Shown here piece after piece: positions 1,838-44,715 of a DNA stretch of 64,000 nucleotides. The DNA comes from Roseburia sp. (GTDB taxonomy: Bacteria > Bacillota_A > Clostridia > Lachnospirales > Lachnospiraceae). Made by a program: the position numbers and the translations under genes. Under the pieces are notes generated by a model. That model did not search any database and was not told the DNA's origin. It worked only from the letters and a program-made list of their open reading frames with translations. Each line of letters begins with the position of its first letter. Position 1 is the stretch's first letter. The stretch covers positions 62,001 to 126,000 of the forward strand of contig DXQT01000003.1 in NCBI GenBank assembly GCA_019411365.1. Direction: 5' to 3'.

Positions 1838-3032
1838 TTTTCGCTTCGTTGATCACATCCTGGATGAAGCCTTCTGTGTCGTCGCGGACGGTCTGCCAGT
1901 CAATGTGTTCCATGTCTGGCGAATCGAGGTCGGCGCCACGGAATACATCCGGCAGATTTTTTTCTTTTGTGATCGTTCCGATAAAGGAAAAAGTGCCAAG
2001 CAGGTCATCGCCCTGCATGACGGAAAGGTTTTTGACATTTATTTCGCAACCGTTGTCGTCTGGCTGAGTGGTGATATAACCGCTCGCTGTAAAATTGTCG
2101 CCCTGATTTGTCTCATAGAGACAGTCCATGTAGATAAAATTCACATGGGTGACAGACGGATTGCGGACATAGGTGAGTGTCATGCGTTCTCCATTTGGCA
2201 TTTCATAGCTTAAAACACAGGTTCCGGCATCTGTTCCGTCAATGATCATGGAAGCACCTTCTGTGATATCAGACAGATCGACCTCCATACGGCTCATCCG
2301 GCACAGATCGGTCAGATATAGGGAAATGCGGATGTCATAGTCCGGGGCATCCATGCCCAAAAGCTCCCAGATAAAACCGCCGGAACCCTCCGGGATCGTG
2401 ACGAGGTATTCGTGGCTTTTTACATCATCAGAATCTGTTCTTGTTTTTCCGATTTCCTCAATCTGAATCTGTCTGGTCAGTTCGATAATATTGGAGAAGT
2501 TGTCGTGAAACCATTCCTGATCAATATCATGTGTCAGCTCCGGTGCTTTTTTGAAATAAGTATTGCTGGTGGTCATGGCATAAGAAAGATTGTCTAACAT
2601 TGGAACCATGAAATAAACGGTATTGGGATTCATATAAAAATCCATCTCGCCAACATTCAGCGTCAGAACATCCATATCGGAGATTATGGAAAGCTTTTTC
2701 TGTGTAAAAGAGCGCTCCCCGGAGATGTCCATGGAAGAGGAGTAATTAAAATTTTTGATATCGTTCATGTAGGCTTTTCCCTCAAATGAGATATCCCCAT
2801 TGAAGTAATCCTGGCATAATTCCATAATGTCAATGTGGTAGGCAATATAAGCCGGATCTTTCAGGGTATCCTGCATAAAATAAATGACAGACAAAAGCAT
2901 TCTGGCACGTGGATTCTTAGAAATATAAACAAAACTGCAGAGAAACAGAAAAAGCAGACATGCAAAAAATATGCCACATCTGCGAAGTCTTTTTTTCTTT
3001 TTTCTGCCCGGAACTGTTTTGGTCTGCTCCAT
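1821..3032 (-). CDS. Membrane-anchored protein of unknown function
   Basis: Function not recognised. 403 residues from the chosen ATG at 3032, which follows AGGAG at a 7-base spacing; upstream in-frame ATG and TTG codons lack a comparable site. The N-terminus has a strongly basic patch (GRKKKKRLRRC) followed by one hydrophobic segment at about residues 20-38. The rest is a hydrophilic, presumably extracytoplasmic domain rich in Asp and in beta-type sequence. This suggests a type II membrane anchor. A role in the cell envelope is only inference. It is convergent with the alpha-galactosidase and its end overlaps the large inverted repeat. Its upstream region holds a copy of the dispersed palindromic element. 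Confidence 0.8.
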   Translation of the reverse strand: MEQTKTVPGRKKKKRLRRCGIFFACLLFLFLCSFVYISKNPRARMLLSVIYFMQDTLKDPAYIAYHIDIMELCQDYFNGDISFEGKAYMNDIKNFNYSSSMDISGERSFTQKKLSIISDMDVLTLNVGEMDFYMNPNTVYFMVPMLDNLSYAMTTSNTYFKKAPELTHDIDQEWFHDNFSNIIELTRQIQIEEIGKTRTDSDDVKSHEYLVTIPEGSGGFIWELLGMDAPDYDIRISLYLTDLCRMSRMEVDLSDITEGASMIIDGTDAGTCVLSYEMPNGERMTLTYVRNPSVTHVNFIYMDCLYETNQGDNFTASGYITTQPDDNGCEINVKNLSVMQGDDLLGTFSFIGTITKEKNLPDVFRGADLDSPDMEHIDWQTVRDDTEGFIQDVINEAKKRLTE

Positions 3033-3063: not shown

Positions 3064-3309
3064 ATAGACAATTGCGAAATTTTGCCTTAATTACGTTAAA
3101 TTGTTCAAAATTAACAAAAACATTCAAGACACGCTCTCGCTACGTGTCGCTCGCAACGGTACTAAGAAGCTAGTCACGTCCTACGGTCGCACCTACCTTC
3201 TAAGAACCAATCGAACTTGTTCGATTTTTGCTCCCCAGTGTCTTTCATGTCTTTTGTCAATTTTTCACAATTCAATTTACGCTCTTAAAAATTTCGTAAT
3301 TGTCTATTC
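3064..3309 (-). repeat. Dispersed palindromic element, copy 1 (inverted)
   Basis: About 246 bp and in the opposite orientation to the other three copies. The outer arms agacaattgcgaaatttt (3066-3083) and aaaatttcgtaattgtct (about 3287-3304) are inverted complements. Inside lie aaattgttcaaaattaac against aatttttcacaattcaattt, then the conserved core (acacgctctcgctacgtgtc, 3130-3149), actaagaagctag with cctaccttctaag, and gctccccagtgtcttt. This copy carries an extra small hairpin (atcgaacttgttcgat, 3208-3223) not seen in the others. It fills the space between the divergent unknown gene and selD. Confidence 0.85.
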
Positions 3310-23524: not shown

Positions 23525-23604
23525 CCACTAAAATACGTGAATATATAAGAGAAACCTATTTATTATTTATTTTGATAATGAACAGGTTTCTTTTCTCATT
23601 TATT

Positions 23605-23809
23605 GCGAAACTCATAAAATGTAAATTAAATTGTGAAAAATCGACAAAAGCTTGAGAAAACACTGGAGAGCGGTCGGTTCTTAGAAGGCAGGTGCGACAA
23701 TAGTCGTGACTGGCTTCTTAGTACCGTTACCAGCGACACGTAGCGAAAGCGTGTTTTCGAAAATTTTGTTGATTTTTCACAATTTGACATAGCATGAGAA
23801 GAGTTTCGC
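23605..23809 (+). repeat. Dispersed palindromic element, copy 2
   Basis: 205 bp. Outer arms gcgaaactc (23605-23613) and gagtttcgc (23801-23809), then aaattgtgaaaaatc against gatttttcacaattt. Conserved core ggttcttagaa ... ttcttagtaccgt ... gcgacacgtagcg. The apical variable stem (aaggcaggtgcgac / gtcgtgactggctt) is shorter than in copies 3 and 4. Located between the MATE gene and the metal-responsive repressor. Confidence 0.85.
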
Positions 23810-23839
23810 CCCCAAAATGAAAAAGATACAAGAATTCTA

Positions 23840-37400: not shown

Positions 37401-37405
37401 GATAT

Positions 37406-37644
37406 AATTGCAAAACTCATACAAATGTAAATTGAATTGTGAAAAATTAACAAAAGACATGAAAGACACTGGGGAGCCGCCGGTCCTTAGAAGTCAGATT
37501 CTGTATTTCATTCTGATTTATCAGAAATGAAATGCAGGATCTGACTTCTTAGTACCGCTGCGAGTGACACGTAGCGAGAGCGTGTCTTGAATGTTTTTGT
37601 TAATTTTGAACAATTCGAAAAAGATTACGAGGAGTTTTGAAATT
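37406..37644 (+). repeat. Dispersed palindromic element, copy 3
   Basis: 239 bp and the clearest copy. Outer arms aattgcaaaactc (37406-37418) and gagttttgaaatt (37632-37644). Next arms aattgtgaaaaattaacaaa with tttgttaattttgaacaatt, then gacatgaaagacac with gtgtcttgaatgt. Conserved core ggagccgccggtccttagaa, ttcttagtaccgctgcgag and gacacgtagcgagagcgtg. The apical hairpin has a long stem (aagtcagattctgtatttcat / atgaaatgcaggatctgactt) with a ctgatttatcag tip. It separates the LRR gene from the DUF2201 gene. Confidence 0.88.
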
Positions 37645-37670
37645 ATTAATTTAACAATAAAGGAGCTGAC

Positions 37671-39008
37671 ATGGAGCAGTTTAGGAGTAAACATAAGCAG
37701 ACACAGAGCGAGTGGGAGGCAGAGATGTCGAAGAAAGTTCTGGAGTTTGTGCGAAGTGAACTATATATGGATCTGCGCTTTTTAGATATTGCACTCGGCA
37801 CGCTTGTTTACCGGGCGGATGAGAATATCAGAAGCTTTGCGACTGACGGCACATATCTTTATTTTTCCACGGAGCAGGTGTTAAGGGTGTTTCAGGGCAA
37901 CCCGAAATATCTCGACAGGGCATACCTGCACAGCGTGCTGCACTGTATCTTTTTCCATCTCTGGATCGGTGGAAAGAGAGACCGGGAAAAATGGAATCTT
38001 GCCTGCGATATTGCGGTGGAATACACGATCGACCAGATGGACAAACCGAGTACGAGGCGGATCTTAAGCTGGCAGAGACAAACGGTTTATGAAGAACTAA
38101 AACAGCAAAAAAGCGGGATTTCCGCAGCGGTCATTTACCGTTATCTAAGTGGCAGAAAGCCGGAAGAACTGATCGCACTGCAAAAGGAATTTTACACGGA
38201 CGACCATCGTTACTGGCCGAAGGAGGAACAGAAAAATGCCGTAAATGAGGACGCCAGAAAACAGTGGGATAAAATTGCAAGGCAGACGCGCATGGAAAAG
38301 GAATCCAGAGGGGATGAGACAGAGGATGGAGAAGAAATTCTTGCTGTACAGCTGAAGGCAGAGAAGAGCAGACAAAGTTATGCAGATTTTCTGCGTAAAT
38401 TTTCCGTTCTGCGGGAGGAACTGCATGCGGATCCCGATGAGTTTGACCTGAATTATTATATTTATGGATTGCGGCTTTACGAAAATATGCCGCTCATTGA
38501 GCCGGTGGAGAGCCGGGAGGTCAAAAAAATCCAGGAGTTTGTCATTGTGGTCGATACGAGTTATTCGACCAGCGGAGAACTCATCCACAATTTTTTGAAA
38601 GAGACCTATACGATCCTGACCGAACAGAACAGTTTTTTTGCAAAAAGCAGAATACGCATCATTCAGTGTGACAATCAGGTGCGCATGGATGAGGAGGTAA
38701 AAAACAGCCGCGAACTCGAACAGCTTTTAAATCGTTTTACAGTTATAGGAGGCGGCGGAACAGATTTCAGACCGGCTTTTGCTTATGTGAACGAATTATT
38801 AGAGCAGGGCGTGTTGAAAAATCTTGGCGGGTTGTTATATTTTACGGATGGCAAGGGCATTTATCCGAAGAAACGGCCGGAATATAAGACCGCATTTCTG
38901 TTTCTGGATGATTATGATGAGAGTGCCGTTCCACCGTGGGCAATGAGACTCCGGGTGGAACAGGAGGATATTTTGGCAGAGGAGACAAGGAGAAACCATG
39001 AACATTAA
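37671..39008 (+). CDS. VWA-like / DUF2201 protein
   Basis: 445 residues. The N-terminal half is the putative metallopeptidase region of DUF2201; its helix reads HSVLHCIFFH and is followed by NLACDIAVEY. The usual HExxH glutamate is Ser here, so proteolytic activity is doubtful. The C-terminal half (about 290-440) is a von Willebrand A-like fold with a MIDAS motif DTSYS and a later GGGGTDF threonine. Such proteins pair with MoxR-type ATPases, and the ATPase gene overlaps this one by 11 bases. Possible role: an adaptor or chaperone module acting on a client protein. Confidence 0.85.
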   Translation: MEQFRSKHKQTQSEWEAEMSKKVLEFVRSELYMDLRFLDIALGTLVYRADENIRSFATDGTYLYFSTEQVLRVFQGNPKYLDRAYLHSVLHCIFFHLWIGGKRDREKWNLACDIAVEYTIDQMDKPSTRRILSWQRQTVYEELKQQKSGISAAVIYRYLSGRKPEELIALQKEFYTDDHRYWPKEEQKNAVNEDARKQWDKIARQTRMEKESRGDETEDGEEILAVQLKAEKSRQSYADFLRKFSVLREELHADPDEFDLNYYIYGLRLYENMPLIEPVESREVKKIQEFVIVVDTSYSTSGELIHNFLKETYTILTEQNSFFAKSRIRIIQCDNQVRMDEEVKNSRELEQLLNRFTVIGGGGTDFRPAFAYVNELLEQGVLKNLGGLLYFTDGKGIYPKKRPEYKTAFLFLDDYDESAVPPWAMRLRVEQEDILAEETRRNHEH

Positions 39009-40825: not shown

Positions 40826-41569
40826 ATGAGAAAAAAAATATTGGACGCAGCATTACTTTTTGCTTTCGCATTGTGCTTGATTGTTACGTCCAACATTCAG
40901 GAAGAGGCAGCATATGTTGCAGAGCCTGAGAATGAGGCAGTACCGCTTCAGGATCAGGAGGCAGAGCCGGAAGAAATGCAATTTTCCGCCGGTGTGGCAG
41001 CTGCAATTTCCGCAAATTCATTTACCACAGAATCAGATGAAAAAACAGGTGTTGAAAAGAAAGATGTTGTTTTAGTGACAACTTCAAATGATTCAGAAAG
41101 TAATTTAGAAGAAGAGACAGACGGATCAGTTGAAACAAATACAGAAGTAAGTGAGAGTGGTCAGGTGGAGGAAGTTTCTGGAACTTCGCAGGCTCCGGCA
41201 TACAACAATCGTTGGAACATCAGCCTGACCGATGAAGAGATCGATTTGCTGGCCAAAATCGTGTGGCTGGAAGCAAACGGCGAACCTGTCGAGGGGCAGG
41301 AAGCGGTTGTCGAGGTGGTGTTAAACCGCATGGCATCCGATTTGTATCCGGATACATTATATGATGTGCTGAGCCAGAACAATCCGGTTCAGTTTGTTTC
41401 CTGGAAAAGACGGGATAAAGCGCATCCGACAGAGACAGAGTACCAGTCTATTTATAATGTATTAAATGGAAATACAGACCTATTAAGAAATGATACAATG
41501 AATTTTTCAACTTATCCGCTCACATCGAATCTTGATGTAAAAATCTGCTGTCATTATTTCTGCTACTAA
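40826..41569 (+). CDS. SleB/CwlJ-type cell wall hydrolase
   Basis: 247 residues. ATG at 40826 follows GAAAGGAG. N-terminal signal or anchor segment (about 5-23), then an acidic low-complexity linker (about 25-125), then a C-terminal hydrolase_2 domain with the catalytic glutamate in VWLEANGEP, plus QEAVVEVVLNRM and the terminal HYFCY. The family cleaves peptidoglycan in spore germination or growth. Secreted or anchored; the Glu/Ser/Thr-rich linker may span the wall. Confidence 0.88.
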   Translation: MRKKILDAALLFAFALCLIVTSNIQEEAAYVAEPENEAVPLQDQEAEPEEMQFSAGVAAAISANSFTTESDEKTGVEKKDVVLVTTSNDSESNLEEETDGSVETNTEVSESGQVEEVSGTSQAPAYNNRWNISLTDEEIDLLAKIVWLEANGEPVEGQEAVVEVVLNRMASDLYPDTLYDVLSQNNPVQFVSWKRRDKAHPTETEYQSIYNVLNGNTDLLRNDTMNFSTYPLTSNLDVKICCHYFCY

Positions 41570-41596
41570 TAAAGTACCAGGCCATGACGCAGCCAG

Positions 41597-41641
41597 CAAA
41601 AGGGATAGTACATGGATAATTTCCGTGTGCTGTCCCTTTTC
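41597..41641. terminator. Terminator after the cell wall hydrolase
   Basis: gggatagtacatgg and ccgtgtgctgtccc pair around ataattt, with aaaa before and ttttc after. Symmetric, so active from either side. Confidence 0.75.
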
Positions 41642-41733
41642 TGGATTCTGAAAATATGTTAAAATATCCGAAAAGGCAAAATGATTCAACAGAGGGCAAC
41701 ACACCCATGAATCATTTTTTCATACAGTAAATT

Positions 41734-41977
41734 GCGAATTGTAAAACTCAACACAGTGTAAATATATTGTGAAAAATTAATCCGCGCAAAAAAGACACTG
41801 GGGAGCCGCCGGTTCTTAGAAAGCAGTGGCTGTATTTCGTTCTGATTTATCAGATAAGAAATGCAGCCGGTGGTTTCTTAGTACCGTTGCGAGCGACACG
41901 TAGCGGAAGCGGGTCTCTTTATGCACGGATTAATTTTGAACAATTTAAAGACAGTATAGATGAATTTTACAATTCGC
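41734..41977 (+). repeat. Dispersed palindromic element, copy 4
   Basis: 244 bp. Outer arms gcgaattgtaaaa (41734-41746) and ttttacaattcgc (41965-41977). Middle arms aaaaattaatccgcgcaaaaaagac against gtctctttatgcacggattaatttt. The middle stem sequence differs from copy 3 yet still pairs with its partner. Core ggagccgccggttcttagaa, ttcttagtaccgttgcgagcgac and acgtagcgg. The apical stem is long, with the same ctgatttatcag tip as copy 3. It ends only 26 bases before the TetM-like start codon. Confidence 0.88.
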
Positions 41978-42003
41978 TTCACAACTTAAGGAAAAAAATA
42001 ATC

Positions 42004-44715
42004 ATGAAACAAATTATAGCAGGAATCCTGGCACATGTGGACGCCGGCAAGACCACATTGTCAGAAGCACTTTTATATAGCAGTGGAAGCATTAAAAAAA
42101 TAGGGCGCGTCGACAACGGCGATGCATTTTTAGACACGGATGCGATGGAGAAAAAACGTGGTATCACGATTTTTTCAAAGCAGGCAGAATTACAATTTGG
42201 TGACACGAAAATGACACTTTTGGACACCCCGGGACACGTGGATTTTTCCGCGGAGATGGAGCGGACGCTGATGGTGCTTGATTATGCCGTGCTTGTCATC
42301 AGTGCATCCGATGGAGTGCAGGCACATACGCAGACACTCTGGCGGCTTTTAAAACGGTATGAAATCCCGGTATTTCTTTTTATTAATAAAATGGATCAGC
42401 CTGGAACGGAACGAGAGACAATTCTTTTGGAGTTAAAAAAACAGTTGTCGGACGGATGCATTGATTTCACGGAACTTGGCGCAGGTACAGAAGAAGAAGC
42501 ACAGGAAAACGAGAAAAGCAGTACTATTATGGAAGAAATTGCTATGGAAGATGAGACTGCGATGGAAAGTTTTTTAGAGACCGGAAGGATTACCGGTGAA
42601 CAAATCAGGGAAATGATCGTGCAGCGAAAGATATTTCCGTGCTTTTTTGGTTCTGCGCTTCGGAATGCCGGCGTGGACACATTTTTACAGGGGTTTGACC
42701 GATATACACTGGCACCGGAATATCCGGATGGATTTGGCATGAAAGTTTTTAAGATCGCGAGAGATGAGGCAGGAAACCGGCTGACCTATCTGAAAGTGAC
42801 CGGAGGAACGTTAAAAGTGAAAGCGCTGCTTTCGAATGCAGACCATGTGCGGTTTGGTGAGGAAGTGTGGGAACAGAAAGTGAACCAGATCCGCATTTAT
42901 TCCGGAACAAAATATGAGCTGATCAATGAAGCGGATGCCGGAATGGTGTGCGCCGTGACCGGATTAGACCACACATATCCGGGACAGGGATTTGGAATCG
43001 AAGCGCAGGGAGAAACACCGGTACTAGAGCCGGTACTGCATTTCCGTCTGATCCTCCCGGAGGACGTGGAGCCGGCAGTCATGCTGCCAAAATTGCGCCA
43101 GATCGAGGAGGAAGAGCCGGAATTACATATTGTATGGAACGAAAAGCTTCAGGAGATCCAGATCCAGATCATGGGCGAGGTTCAGACGGAAATTTTAAAA
43201 AGCATGATCGCAGAGCGTTTTGGCGTGGAGGTGTCATTTGGTCCGGGCAAGATTGTATACAAGGAAACAATCGCAGATGCAGTGGAGGGCGTGGGACATT
43301 TTGAACCTCTCAGACATTATGCGGAAGTACATCTTTTGTTAGAGCCGCTGGAACCGGGAAGCGGTATTGTGATCGACACAGACTGCAGTGAGGATGTGCT
43401 GGACAAAAACTGGCAGCGGTTGATCGTGACACATTTAAAAGAGCGGGAGCATATCGGAGTGTTGACCGGTTCGGTGGTCACAGATATGAAAATCACAGTG
43501 ATCGGTGGAAGGGCACACACGAAACACACGGAGGGCGGCGATTTCAGACAGGCGACTTACCGGGCAGTGCGTCAGGGATTAAAACAGGCGCAGTCTGTGC
43601 TGCTGGAGCCGTATTACGAATTTCACATAGCTGTTCCGCAGAATATGGTAGGACGTGCTATGACGGATGTTGAAAAGATGCACGGAAAGTTTGAAGGACC
43701 TTATCAGGAGGGCGATGCACAGGTTCTGCGCGGCATTGCTCCGGTGGCGTGCATGGCAAATTACCAGAAGGAAGTGACTGCCTACACGAAAGGGCTTGGA
43801 AAAGTAACGTTCCGGTTTGCGGGATATTACCCATGTCACAACACGGAAGAGGTGGTCGCACAGACCGGTTATGATCCGGAGCGGGATCTTTCGCACCCGG
43901 CGGATTCTGTTTTCTGTGCGCACGGAGCAGGATTTATCGTTCCATGGAATGAAGTGCCGGATCACATGCATGTGGAAGGCAGGCTTCTGAAAAAGAAAGA
44001 GCAGCAGGAGGAAGCACCTTCCGGTAAAAAGACAAAAACCTACGATCTGGATCACTGGATCGACATTGAGGAGATTGATGCGATCTTAGCACGCACCTAT
44101 CATGCAAATAAGCATGAGAAGGGAGCGACAAAGCAGTGGCGGACCACGAAAAAAGTGATTTCGGGAGACAATGCGCCGCACTATGCACCTGTAAAGGCAG
44201 TTTCCAAAGAGGAATATCTGCTGGTGGACGGTTATAATATCATTTTTGCATGGGAGAGCTTAAAAGAGCTTGCGGCAGTCAATATCGACGGAGCAAGAGG
44301 AAAACTTTTAGATATTTTGTGCAATTATCAGGGCATAAAAAAATGCAATCTGATCGTGGTGTTTGATGCGTACCGCGTAAAAGGACACCAGACGGAAATG
44401 CTCGATCACCATAATATCCATGTCGTGTATACGAAAGAGGCGGAGACTGCCGATGCTTATATTGAAAAGTTTGCACATGAAAACGGAAGAAAATACCATG
44501 TGACAGTGGCGACTTCGGATGGTCTTGAACAGATCATCATCACCGGGCAGGGCTGTCATCTGCTCTCTGCAAGAGAGTTTGAGCGTGTGGTAGCGGCAGC
44601 AAACCAGACGCTTCGGGAAACGATCGATGGAATGAGGGAAAAATCATCCAATCACATTCTGGGAGATGCACTGAAACAATTAACCGATGAGAAAATACAA
44701 TTGCAAAACTCATAA
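42004..44715 (+). CDS. TetM-like ribosomal protection GTPase fused to a NYN domain
   Basis: 903 residues from ATG 42004 (AAGGA upstream); the open frame extends further back, but only through the palindromic repeat. Residues 1 to about 640 are a translational GTPase of the TetM/TetO/EF-G type: AHVDAGKTT (G1), RGIT switch, DTPGH (G3), NKMD (G4) and EF-G-like domains IV-V. A linker of about 90 residues follows. Residues about 735-885 are a NYN/YacP-type PIN-like nuclease fold (LVDGYNIIF, VVFDAYRVKG, TVATSDGLEQ). True TetM ends near residue 640, so the nuclease-like extension is the oddity. Whether it confers tetracycline resistance is not predictable. Confidence 0.9.
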   Translation: MKQIIAGILAHVDAGKTTLSEALLYSSGSIKKIGRVDNGDAFLDTDAMEKKRGITIFSKQAELQFGDTKMTLLDTPGHVDFSAEMERTLMVLDYAVLVISASDGVQAHTQTLWRLLKRYEIPVFLFINKMDQPGTERETILLELKKQLSDGCIDFTELGAGTEEEAQENEKSSTIMEEIAMEDETAMESFLETGRITGEQIREMIVQRKIFPCFFGSALRNAGVDTFLQGFDRYTLAPEYPDGFGMKVFKIARDEAGNRLTYLKVTGGTLKVKALLSNADHVRFGEEVWEQKVNQIRIYSGTKYELINEADAGMVCAVTGLDHTYPGQGFGIEAQGETPVLEPVLHFRLILPEDVEPAVMLPKLRQIEEEEPELHIVWNEKLQEIQIQIMGEVQTEILKSMIAERFGVEVSFGPGKIVYKETIADAVEGVGHFEPLRHYAEVHLLLEPLEPGSGIVIDTDCSEDVLDKNWQRLIVTHLKEREHIGVLTGSVVTDMKITVIGGRAHTKHTEGGDFRQATYRAVRQGLKQAQSVLLEPYYEFHIAVPQNMVGRAMTDVEKMHGKFEGPYQEGDAQVLRGIAPVACMANYQKEVTAYTKGLGKVTFRFAGYYPCHNTEEVVAQTGYDPERDLSHPADSVFCAHGAGFIVPWNEVPDHMHVEGRLLKKKEQQEEAPSGKKTKTYDLDHWIDIEEIDAILARTYHANKHEKGATKQWRTTKKVISGDNAPHYAPVKAVSKEEYLLVDGYNIIFAWESLKELAAVNIDGARGKLLDILCNYQGIKKCNLIVVFDAYRVKGHQTEMLDHHNIHVVYTKEAETADAYIEKFAHENGRKYHVTVATSDGLEQIIITGQGCHLLSAREFERVVAAANQTLRETIDGMREKSSNHILGDALKQLTDEKIQLQNS

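Follow-up and report, generated by a model that had tools for sequence, protein, structure and literature searches.

The window, as we call the whole 64-kb stretch of DNA analysed here, contains four copies of a palindromic element (Table 1). By eye, all four stand before a gene read in the sense direction. Specifically, copy 1 precedes a minus-strand gene starting at 3032, and copy 3 is flanked by two same-strand reading frames and lies directly 5' of the ribosome-binding site of the frame that starts at 37671. The script used below for start-codon context scored copies 2 and 4 as having neither orientation and copy 1 as having both. A sequence-only reading of this DNA had proposed the four copies, and all of them were found where it had placed them, by motif count as well as with a covariance model, the core of copy 1 being on the minus strand. 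With up to three mismatches allowed, a 31-base core motif has four matches in the window and none in 100 shuffles. At E 0.001 the covariance model returns these four copies and no fifth one in the 64 kb. Every copy is predicted to form one long hairpin, with energies from −91.7 to −103.4 kcal/mol. Copy 1 has the terminal repeats TAGACAATTGCGAAATTT and AAATTTCGTAATTGTCTA; copies 2 and 4 can be placed only approximately, owing to decay of their ends.

Table 1. Positions of the four elements in the window and of conserved parts of the copy 3 core
Feature	Position	Strand	Remark
Copy 1, whole element	3065..3306	-	core 3124-3233 on the minus strand; covariance model 34.8 bits
Copy 2, whole element, right end decayed	~23599..23812	+	core 23653-23759; 79.9 bits
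Copy 3, whole element	37401..37649	+	core 37459-37590; 80.2 bits
Copy 4, whole element	~41734..41977	+	core 41788-41919; 73.3 bits; ATG downstream at 42004
Copy 3, 5' CUUAG strand of the conserved helix with central U-U mismatch	37486..37490	+	read from sequence; kept in both alignments
Copy 3, 3' CUUAG strand of the helix with U-U mismatch	37548..37552	+	read from sequence; kept in both alignments
Copy 3, AGC-GAGA-GC mini-hairpin with GNRA tetraloop, at the three-way junction	37573..37581	+	GNRA in 169/178 copies

The fold was studied in two alignments, one of 29 copies from the window species and one of 32 copies from many genera. Both give a consensus in which a long outer stem leads to a three-way junction, followed by an inner helix and an apical hairpin of variable length. 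The arm pairs previously quoted for copies 3 and 4 are correct as given, and so is the remark that the apical hairpin varies between copies. On the 3' strand of the junction sits a mini-hairpin of two base pairs, AGC-GNRA-GC. The inner helix has a two-base bulge (YU), followed by the tract GGUNCUUAG...CUUAGUACC with a central U-U mismatch. The most frequent type has a G-A/A-G tandem and a bulged A at the start of this helix; the type found in genome G269 has, by eye, plain pairs there. In the core of copy 1 and in one other copy (L016) an extra small hairpin (AATCGAACAAGTTCGATT) takes the place of part of the inner helix.

Across 178 copies aligned to a model that already contains the pairs in question, the tetraloop is GNRA in 169 (GAGA 56, GAAA 46, GCAA 34, GGGA 15, GCGA 9, GGAA 8, GTAA 1) and its third base is a purine in 176, while the stem pairs are GC/GC in 148, GT/AC in 19, AC/GT in 4, GC/GT in 3 and AT/AT in 2, the changes retaining pairing. 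The figure of 169 covers all model-aligned copies and replaces a narrower count of 79/80 obtained from a regular-expression subset of 80. Of the nine loops that are not GNRA, seven have A for G in the first place and two are partial or antisense alignments.

Covariation had been proposed from the four window copies and proved strong in both alignments. In the single-species set, 94.3% of the cells of 52 pairs are paired and 32 pairs have changed on both sides (shuffled mean 12.8, 0/500 as high); when the structure is slid by one to three columns only 4-9 such pairs remain. In the many-genera set both-side changes are found in 22 of 32 pairs (shuffled mean 13.8, 0/500) and the covariation score is 0.423 against 0.189. 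One of five measures there, the number of further pair types (45), does not rise above the shuffles (mean 47.0, 435/500 as high). It is important to note that both structures were picked after inspecting the sequences and that the shuffles ignore phylogeny. The suggestion that this is more than plain duplication agrees with the motif shuffles and the covariation counts, which reject both plain duplication and chance. A simpler test on an ungapped 20-base window of the arms (regular-expression subset, 75 copies) gave self-complementarity of 0.93 within copies against 0.50 between copies in G070, and modest values in G269 (0.70 vs 0.52) and G242 (0.63 vs 0.50). For G250, G156 and R. inulinivorans this test is uninformative, because their arms are common to several copies.

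If complementarity were kept at the level of DNA only, G-T and A-C mismatches would be expected in equal numbers, a G-T on one strand being an A-C on the other. On the core strand of 154 copies the inner 12 pairs have 139 G-U and 16 A-C, and pairs 13-30 have 100 and 43. These copies were kept from 186 hits after removal of duplicates, of hits shorter than 80 bases and of hits without a recognisable mini-hairpin. In a second set of 182 copies, from which arm alignments scoring under 8 were excluded, G-U:A-C in pairs 1-12 is 61:8 with visible transposon ends and 115:19 without, and in pairs 13-28 it is 41:20 and 55:22, so that the inner excess has the same direction whether or not ends are recognisable. 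Because of the relatedness of the copies and a fixed GGUGC/GUGCC motif that they have in common by the junction, the G-U and A-C counts are not independent and their nominal p-values are too optimistic; moreover, the sets of 154, 158 and 182 copies used here all require parts of the mini-hairpin by regular expression. Together with the GNRA loop, the excess of G-U over A-C speaks for selection at the RNA level on a single strand, acting on the core and the inner 25-30 pairs. The earlier reading had left the choice between a folded RNA and a REP/MITE-like element. Its first half fits the GNRA loop with a covarying stem, the G-U excess on one strand and the compensated double changes between orthologs described below.

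The second half holds for young copies, which are MITE-like and have terminal repeats and target duplications matching those of an autonomous IS1182-like element. Many copies end in TAGRYNNTTGCGAAACTC or a near variant. Among the 180 of the 182 copies that have enough flank, 23 stand between direct repeats of 10 bp or more, as compared to 21 of 2000 controls with mismatched left and right flanks. A check for target-site duplications had been suggested: young copies have them, 10-13 bp long (one 15-base match runs into the element end), and in the four window copies no clean one was found. The transposase with matching ends that had also been asked after came to light by an end-pattern search in the nearest genome, R. 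inulinivorans DSM 16841 (G001), which has 63% of the window's sampled 31-mers in common; the window itself most likely stems from a strain of this species. There a 1753-bp IS has the same ends and an 11-bp duplication. Its protein of 485 amino acids carries a DUF772 transposase domain above the cut-off, while it reaches 72.2 bits of the 270 required by the IS1182 family model NF033551; we therefore name it IS1182-like only. The sequence TAGRYNNTTGCGAAAC is found at MITE ends and, with few mismatches, at both IS ends in L280-L284, L286 and L288. Other genera have related IS with these ends, and duplications of 10-12 bp were read by eye in 5 of 14 IS loci (L280, L282, L283, L284, L288). The two IS ends are slightly unlike each other (GGCGTTT vs GGTAATT) and several MITEs show the same difference.

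The ends and the core are separable. Six palindromes of 54-93 bp in G001 (L090, L096, L100, L101, L102, L103) have the same ends and are too short for the core, therefore the ends travel without the core. A regular expression found no core within the IS copies of L280-L293. By hand count, the IS is found in 34 and the core in 118 of 298 genomes, and both in 15 (13.5 expected by chance), so that their presence does not correlate; 103 of the 118 core-bearing genomes are without such an IS at the threshold used. Genome G959 has 16 copies (L368-L383) of few closely similar subtypes with unrelated ends, CTATACTTTATTGTT or near it, often beside other repeated hairpins, and no IS with CTATACTTTATTGTT ends was found in 14 stretches round unpaired ends. 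This sequence pattern hints that the core may have been mobilised by more than one system. Three copies in G250 (L170, L171, L172) have TAGCCATGAGCAAAAC-like sequence at both ends, still as an inverted repeat, and copies with the usual ends are present in the same genome; the tetraloop of these three is AAAA in place of GNRA. Near one end (TAGACGTTTGCGAAACGC) of L095, on contig C169 of G001, there is a second, broken transposase of IS5/IS1182 type.

Compared with MITEs of IS1182-like elements, the present elements are alike in being short, without coding capacity seen, with terminal repeats shared with an IS, target duplications and high copy number. They differ in the inner conserved RNA fold, which is also found in copies lacking these ends and in a lineage whose ends are of another kind.

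The covariance-model search of related Lachnospiraceae that had been proposed, run with a 92-position core model (R1) at E 0.001 or better, gave hits in 118 of the 298 genomes sampled within this family and in 114 of its 280 sampled genera; 14 candidates were scored per genome and copy numbers are lower bounds. In an order-wide sample 43 of 245 genomes are positive and in a phylum-wide sample 4 of 299, in both cases all within Lachnospiraceae; the listed unmatched genomes of the phylum span at least 20 other families. Plain BLAST found 8 of 62 genomes in the genus of G001 and 28 of 397 in the family. G001 itself has at least 40 distinct matching places, some partial (56 matches, 40 of 85 candidates scored), when self-matches on the opposite strand are left out. 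One match lies in a metagenome bin labelled Bacteroides, which we take for an error of binning or naming. No viral contig had an exact match to the one pattern searched.

The sequence-only reading knew no named family for this element, which agrees with our searches. At the gathering score Rfam 15 returns only a tRNA in the window and no family on the element, and for six other loci only microRNA hairpins below the gathering score (E up to 1). No title or abstract opening returned by our literature searches describes the element family. The main text of PMC8040213, a study of the human microbiome, contains neither Roseburia nor Lachnospir, and overlap in its supplementary tables is possible; like the present elements, its candidates are palindromic structured RNAs of gut bacteria, and the named examples differ in coming from Bacteroidetes. 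Apparently, therefore, a large family of mobile palindromes that folds as RNA has gone undescribed, and it is a possibility that its core is a new RNA class. Dispersed intergenic imperfect palindromes able to fold as RNA are known from other bacteria, namely the bcr1 repeats of the Bacillus cereus group and ERIC, and these differ from the present elements in hosts, size, ends and core. As compared to them, a single core here spans 114 of the 280 sampled genera of one bacterial family. A fold in about 40% of sampled family genomes, often before housekeeping-like genes, would be a sizeable unannotated RNA family, and it would model how transposons seed regulatory RNA.

The element occupies the same places in the sister species G269 and G756, and on this comparison the orthologous copies must predate the species split. 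By eye, no IS1182-like ends are seen in these copies. For 11 elements at 10 loci the cores are 95.7% identical (973/1017 columns; single pairs 0.77 to 1.00), and DNA 150-1200 bp away, presumably mostly coding, is 91.6% identical. Gene conversion between copies could help to conserve the core. In 12 ortholog pairs, which include window copy 4 with its partner in G001, stem pairs predicted from one partner are unchanged in 670 cases and gapped in 23. Where both sides have changed, 37 still pair and 4 do not; where one side has changed, 29 keep pairing and 50 break it. In L366/L356 the two-pair GNRA stem itself has, by eye, changed on both sides.

We consider it probable that the element is a MITE with a conserved structured RNA inside it, which often takes the place of a leader in sense orientation. 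It would be a non-autonomous mobile palindrome of about 200-260 bp, its inner part being the conserved RNA, and young copies were most likely moved in trans by the IS1182-like (DUF772) transposase of the 1.75-kb IS. As far as sequence comparison can tell, the RNA of one strand would be selected to fold into an outer stem, a three-way junction with the GNRA mini-hairpin, the YU bulge, the CUUAG/CUUAG helix and the apical hairpin, and the core would stay conserved after the ends have decayed. We regard the two main parts of this explanation, IS1182-like mobility and selection at the RNA level, as well supported, so far as sequence goes. A hairpin DNA intermediate, which had also been considered, is not needed to explain the elements. 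The element would be transcribed as part of the transcripts around it and would often form their 5' leader, in sense orientation, directly before the ribosome-binding site; its compact fold may keep the insertion harmless or act in cis on the stability or processing of the mRNA. Most likely it works in cis, folding up as a leader or spacer that protects the transcript or shields the downstream gene from the insertion. The outer arms are probably under a pairing constraint and no sequence constraint.

A bolder version is possible, and we put it forward tentatively. In it the core is a new functional class of structured RNA of Lachnospiraceae that is selected by the host at orthologous sites and carried by several sets of transposon ends (IS1182-like, the TAGCCATGAGCAAAAC variant and the unrelated CTATACTTTATTGTT), and template switching rewrites both long outer arms together; the old copies of some genomes would then nearly all have a private, well-paired stem.

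Gene context bears on the leader role and on the main rival of this explanation. Among 158 copies scored by our own script, which is not a gene finder, 54 have a start codon with a ribosome-binding site near them in the sense direction only and 22 in the antisense direction only (p = 0.0003); three have them both ways and 79 neither way. The sense bias is distinct in R. inulinivorans (18 vs 5) and in the mixed rest (34 vs 15) and absent in the genus of G269 (2 vs 2). A first crude count over 141 rows, a few of which are false matches of a loose pattern, had 47 copies in line with both flanking frames and 30 against both, 19 between convergent and 17 between divergent frames, and 28 with one side missing. 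A universal 5'-leader regulator was rejected as a general rule: the contexts are mixed and a mere sense bias remains. Judged by eye from N-termini, the genes behind sense copies look like housekeeping genes (pheS, pheT, clpC, dnaG, clpX, thiI, ilvC and others). A shared downstream pathway was also looked for among these genes by eye, and no theme was found.

The main rival, which we regard as unlikely, sees in the core an RNA that acts in trans or binds protein, such as a dispersed sRNA or a regulon element, and that is mobile only incidentally. The purifying selection seen at orthologous sites and the conserved unpaired features (the bulged YU, the U-U in CUUAG and the GNRA loop) are in line with it. 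The many core-bearing genomes in which the IS was not detected and the 16 closely similar copies of G959, of few subtypes and with different ends, fit as well. However, the want of a common theme among the downstream genes speaks against it, and so do the promoter-like sites of the window copies, which number 1 in copy 3, 3 in copy 4, 1 in copy 2 and 1 in copy 1 as compared to shuffle means of 0.8-0.9. The three sites of copy 4 are about two standard deviations above the shuffles and a promoter may be present there.

The outer arms require a separate discussion, since they behave differently from the core. Between G269 and G756 the first 12 bases beyond the core are 86% identical, arm bases 13-35 are 70.1% identical and the flanks 73.5%. 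At two loci (L365/L357 and L367/L361) most of the outer-arm sequence has been replaced on both sides of a nearly unchanged core, and each version is paired with itself; in L129/L330 the outer arms of L330 no longer pair. Arms that change about as fast as the flanks and yet mostly stay complementary suggest that both sides change together, as in template switching, a process proposed to create and maintain RNA hairpins (PMC8794818). A further rival explanation is that pairing of the whole element is maintained at the DNA level, by template switching between the palindrome arms (quasi-palindrome correction), with an RNA that has no function. We think this quite improbable for the element as a whole. 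The outermost pairs, where the transposon ends sit, do have no G-U excess (80 G-U vs 131 A-C in the 154 copies), and in pairs 29-45 of the 182-copy set G-U:A-C is 15:12 in copies without visible ends. On the other hand, it is 21:6 in the same pairs of copies with visible ends. A strand-blind process predicts equal G-U and A-C and no GNRA loop, which is different from the 139:16 of the inner pairs and the 169 GNRA loops in 178 copies, and conservation of the core exceeds that of DNA 150-1200 bp away. Template switching is likely to hold for the outer arms only. Within the explanation that we prefer, a mobile palindrome with an RNA-selected core, both arm sides would be rewritten at about the rate of neighbouring DNA, probably via template switching across the palindrome. 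The sister-species pairs, whose cores hardly change and whose paired arms do, would allow a test of a long-standing question: are long RNA stems altered step by step through compensation, or in concert by templated mutation?

Another rival has the elements move in the form of single-stranded DNA hairpins with the help of RAYT, the IS200/IS605-type tyrosine transposase of REP/BIME elements. This would suit repeats that are palindromic, intergenic, of high copy number and sometimes in inverted pairs. We consider it very unlikely: the target duplications and the ends of a DUF772, IS1182-like IS already disfavour it for young copies, and the elements are about 200-260 bp long as compared to 20-40 bp for REP (PMC3733652). 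The REP/BIME repeats described there (GTAG and CGTC repeats) resemble the present elements as intergenic palindromes that sometimes form inverted pairs and are possibly active as RNA; they differ in that the present elements are not 20-40 bp long and have target duplications and DUF772-type IS ends. BIME-like inverted pairs, with 5' ends facing and 87-273 bp between the cores, were observed in L062, L088, L197, L200, L201, L204 and L205. Equally far-fetched is that stable hairpins between genes are intrinsic terminators or attenuators alike by chance, since the four window copies contain no terminator-like site (GC-rich hairpin followed by a T run), a conserved core with terminal repeats is atypical of such hairpins and many copies precede start codons.

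The four window copies are in different states in G001. Copies 2 and 3 are 100% identical at the G001 loci. Copy 1 is deleted there save about 11 bp of one end; a clean empty site was considered for it and rejected, as the remnant marks a deletion. At the site of copy 4 (L003) G001 has another version of the element, with arms that are different and yet self-complementary. When positions 41550-42010 of the window are compared to L003, the whole intergenic stretch of copy 4 is strongly diverged and the flanking genes are nearly identical. A hairpin neighbouring copy 4 (GGGAYAG...CTGTCCC) also differs between the two. By eye, the start of the reading frame behind copy 4 (42004-44715) looks like that of a translation-factor GTPase akin to ribosomal protection proteins.
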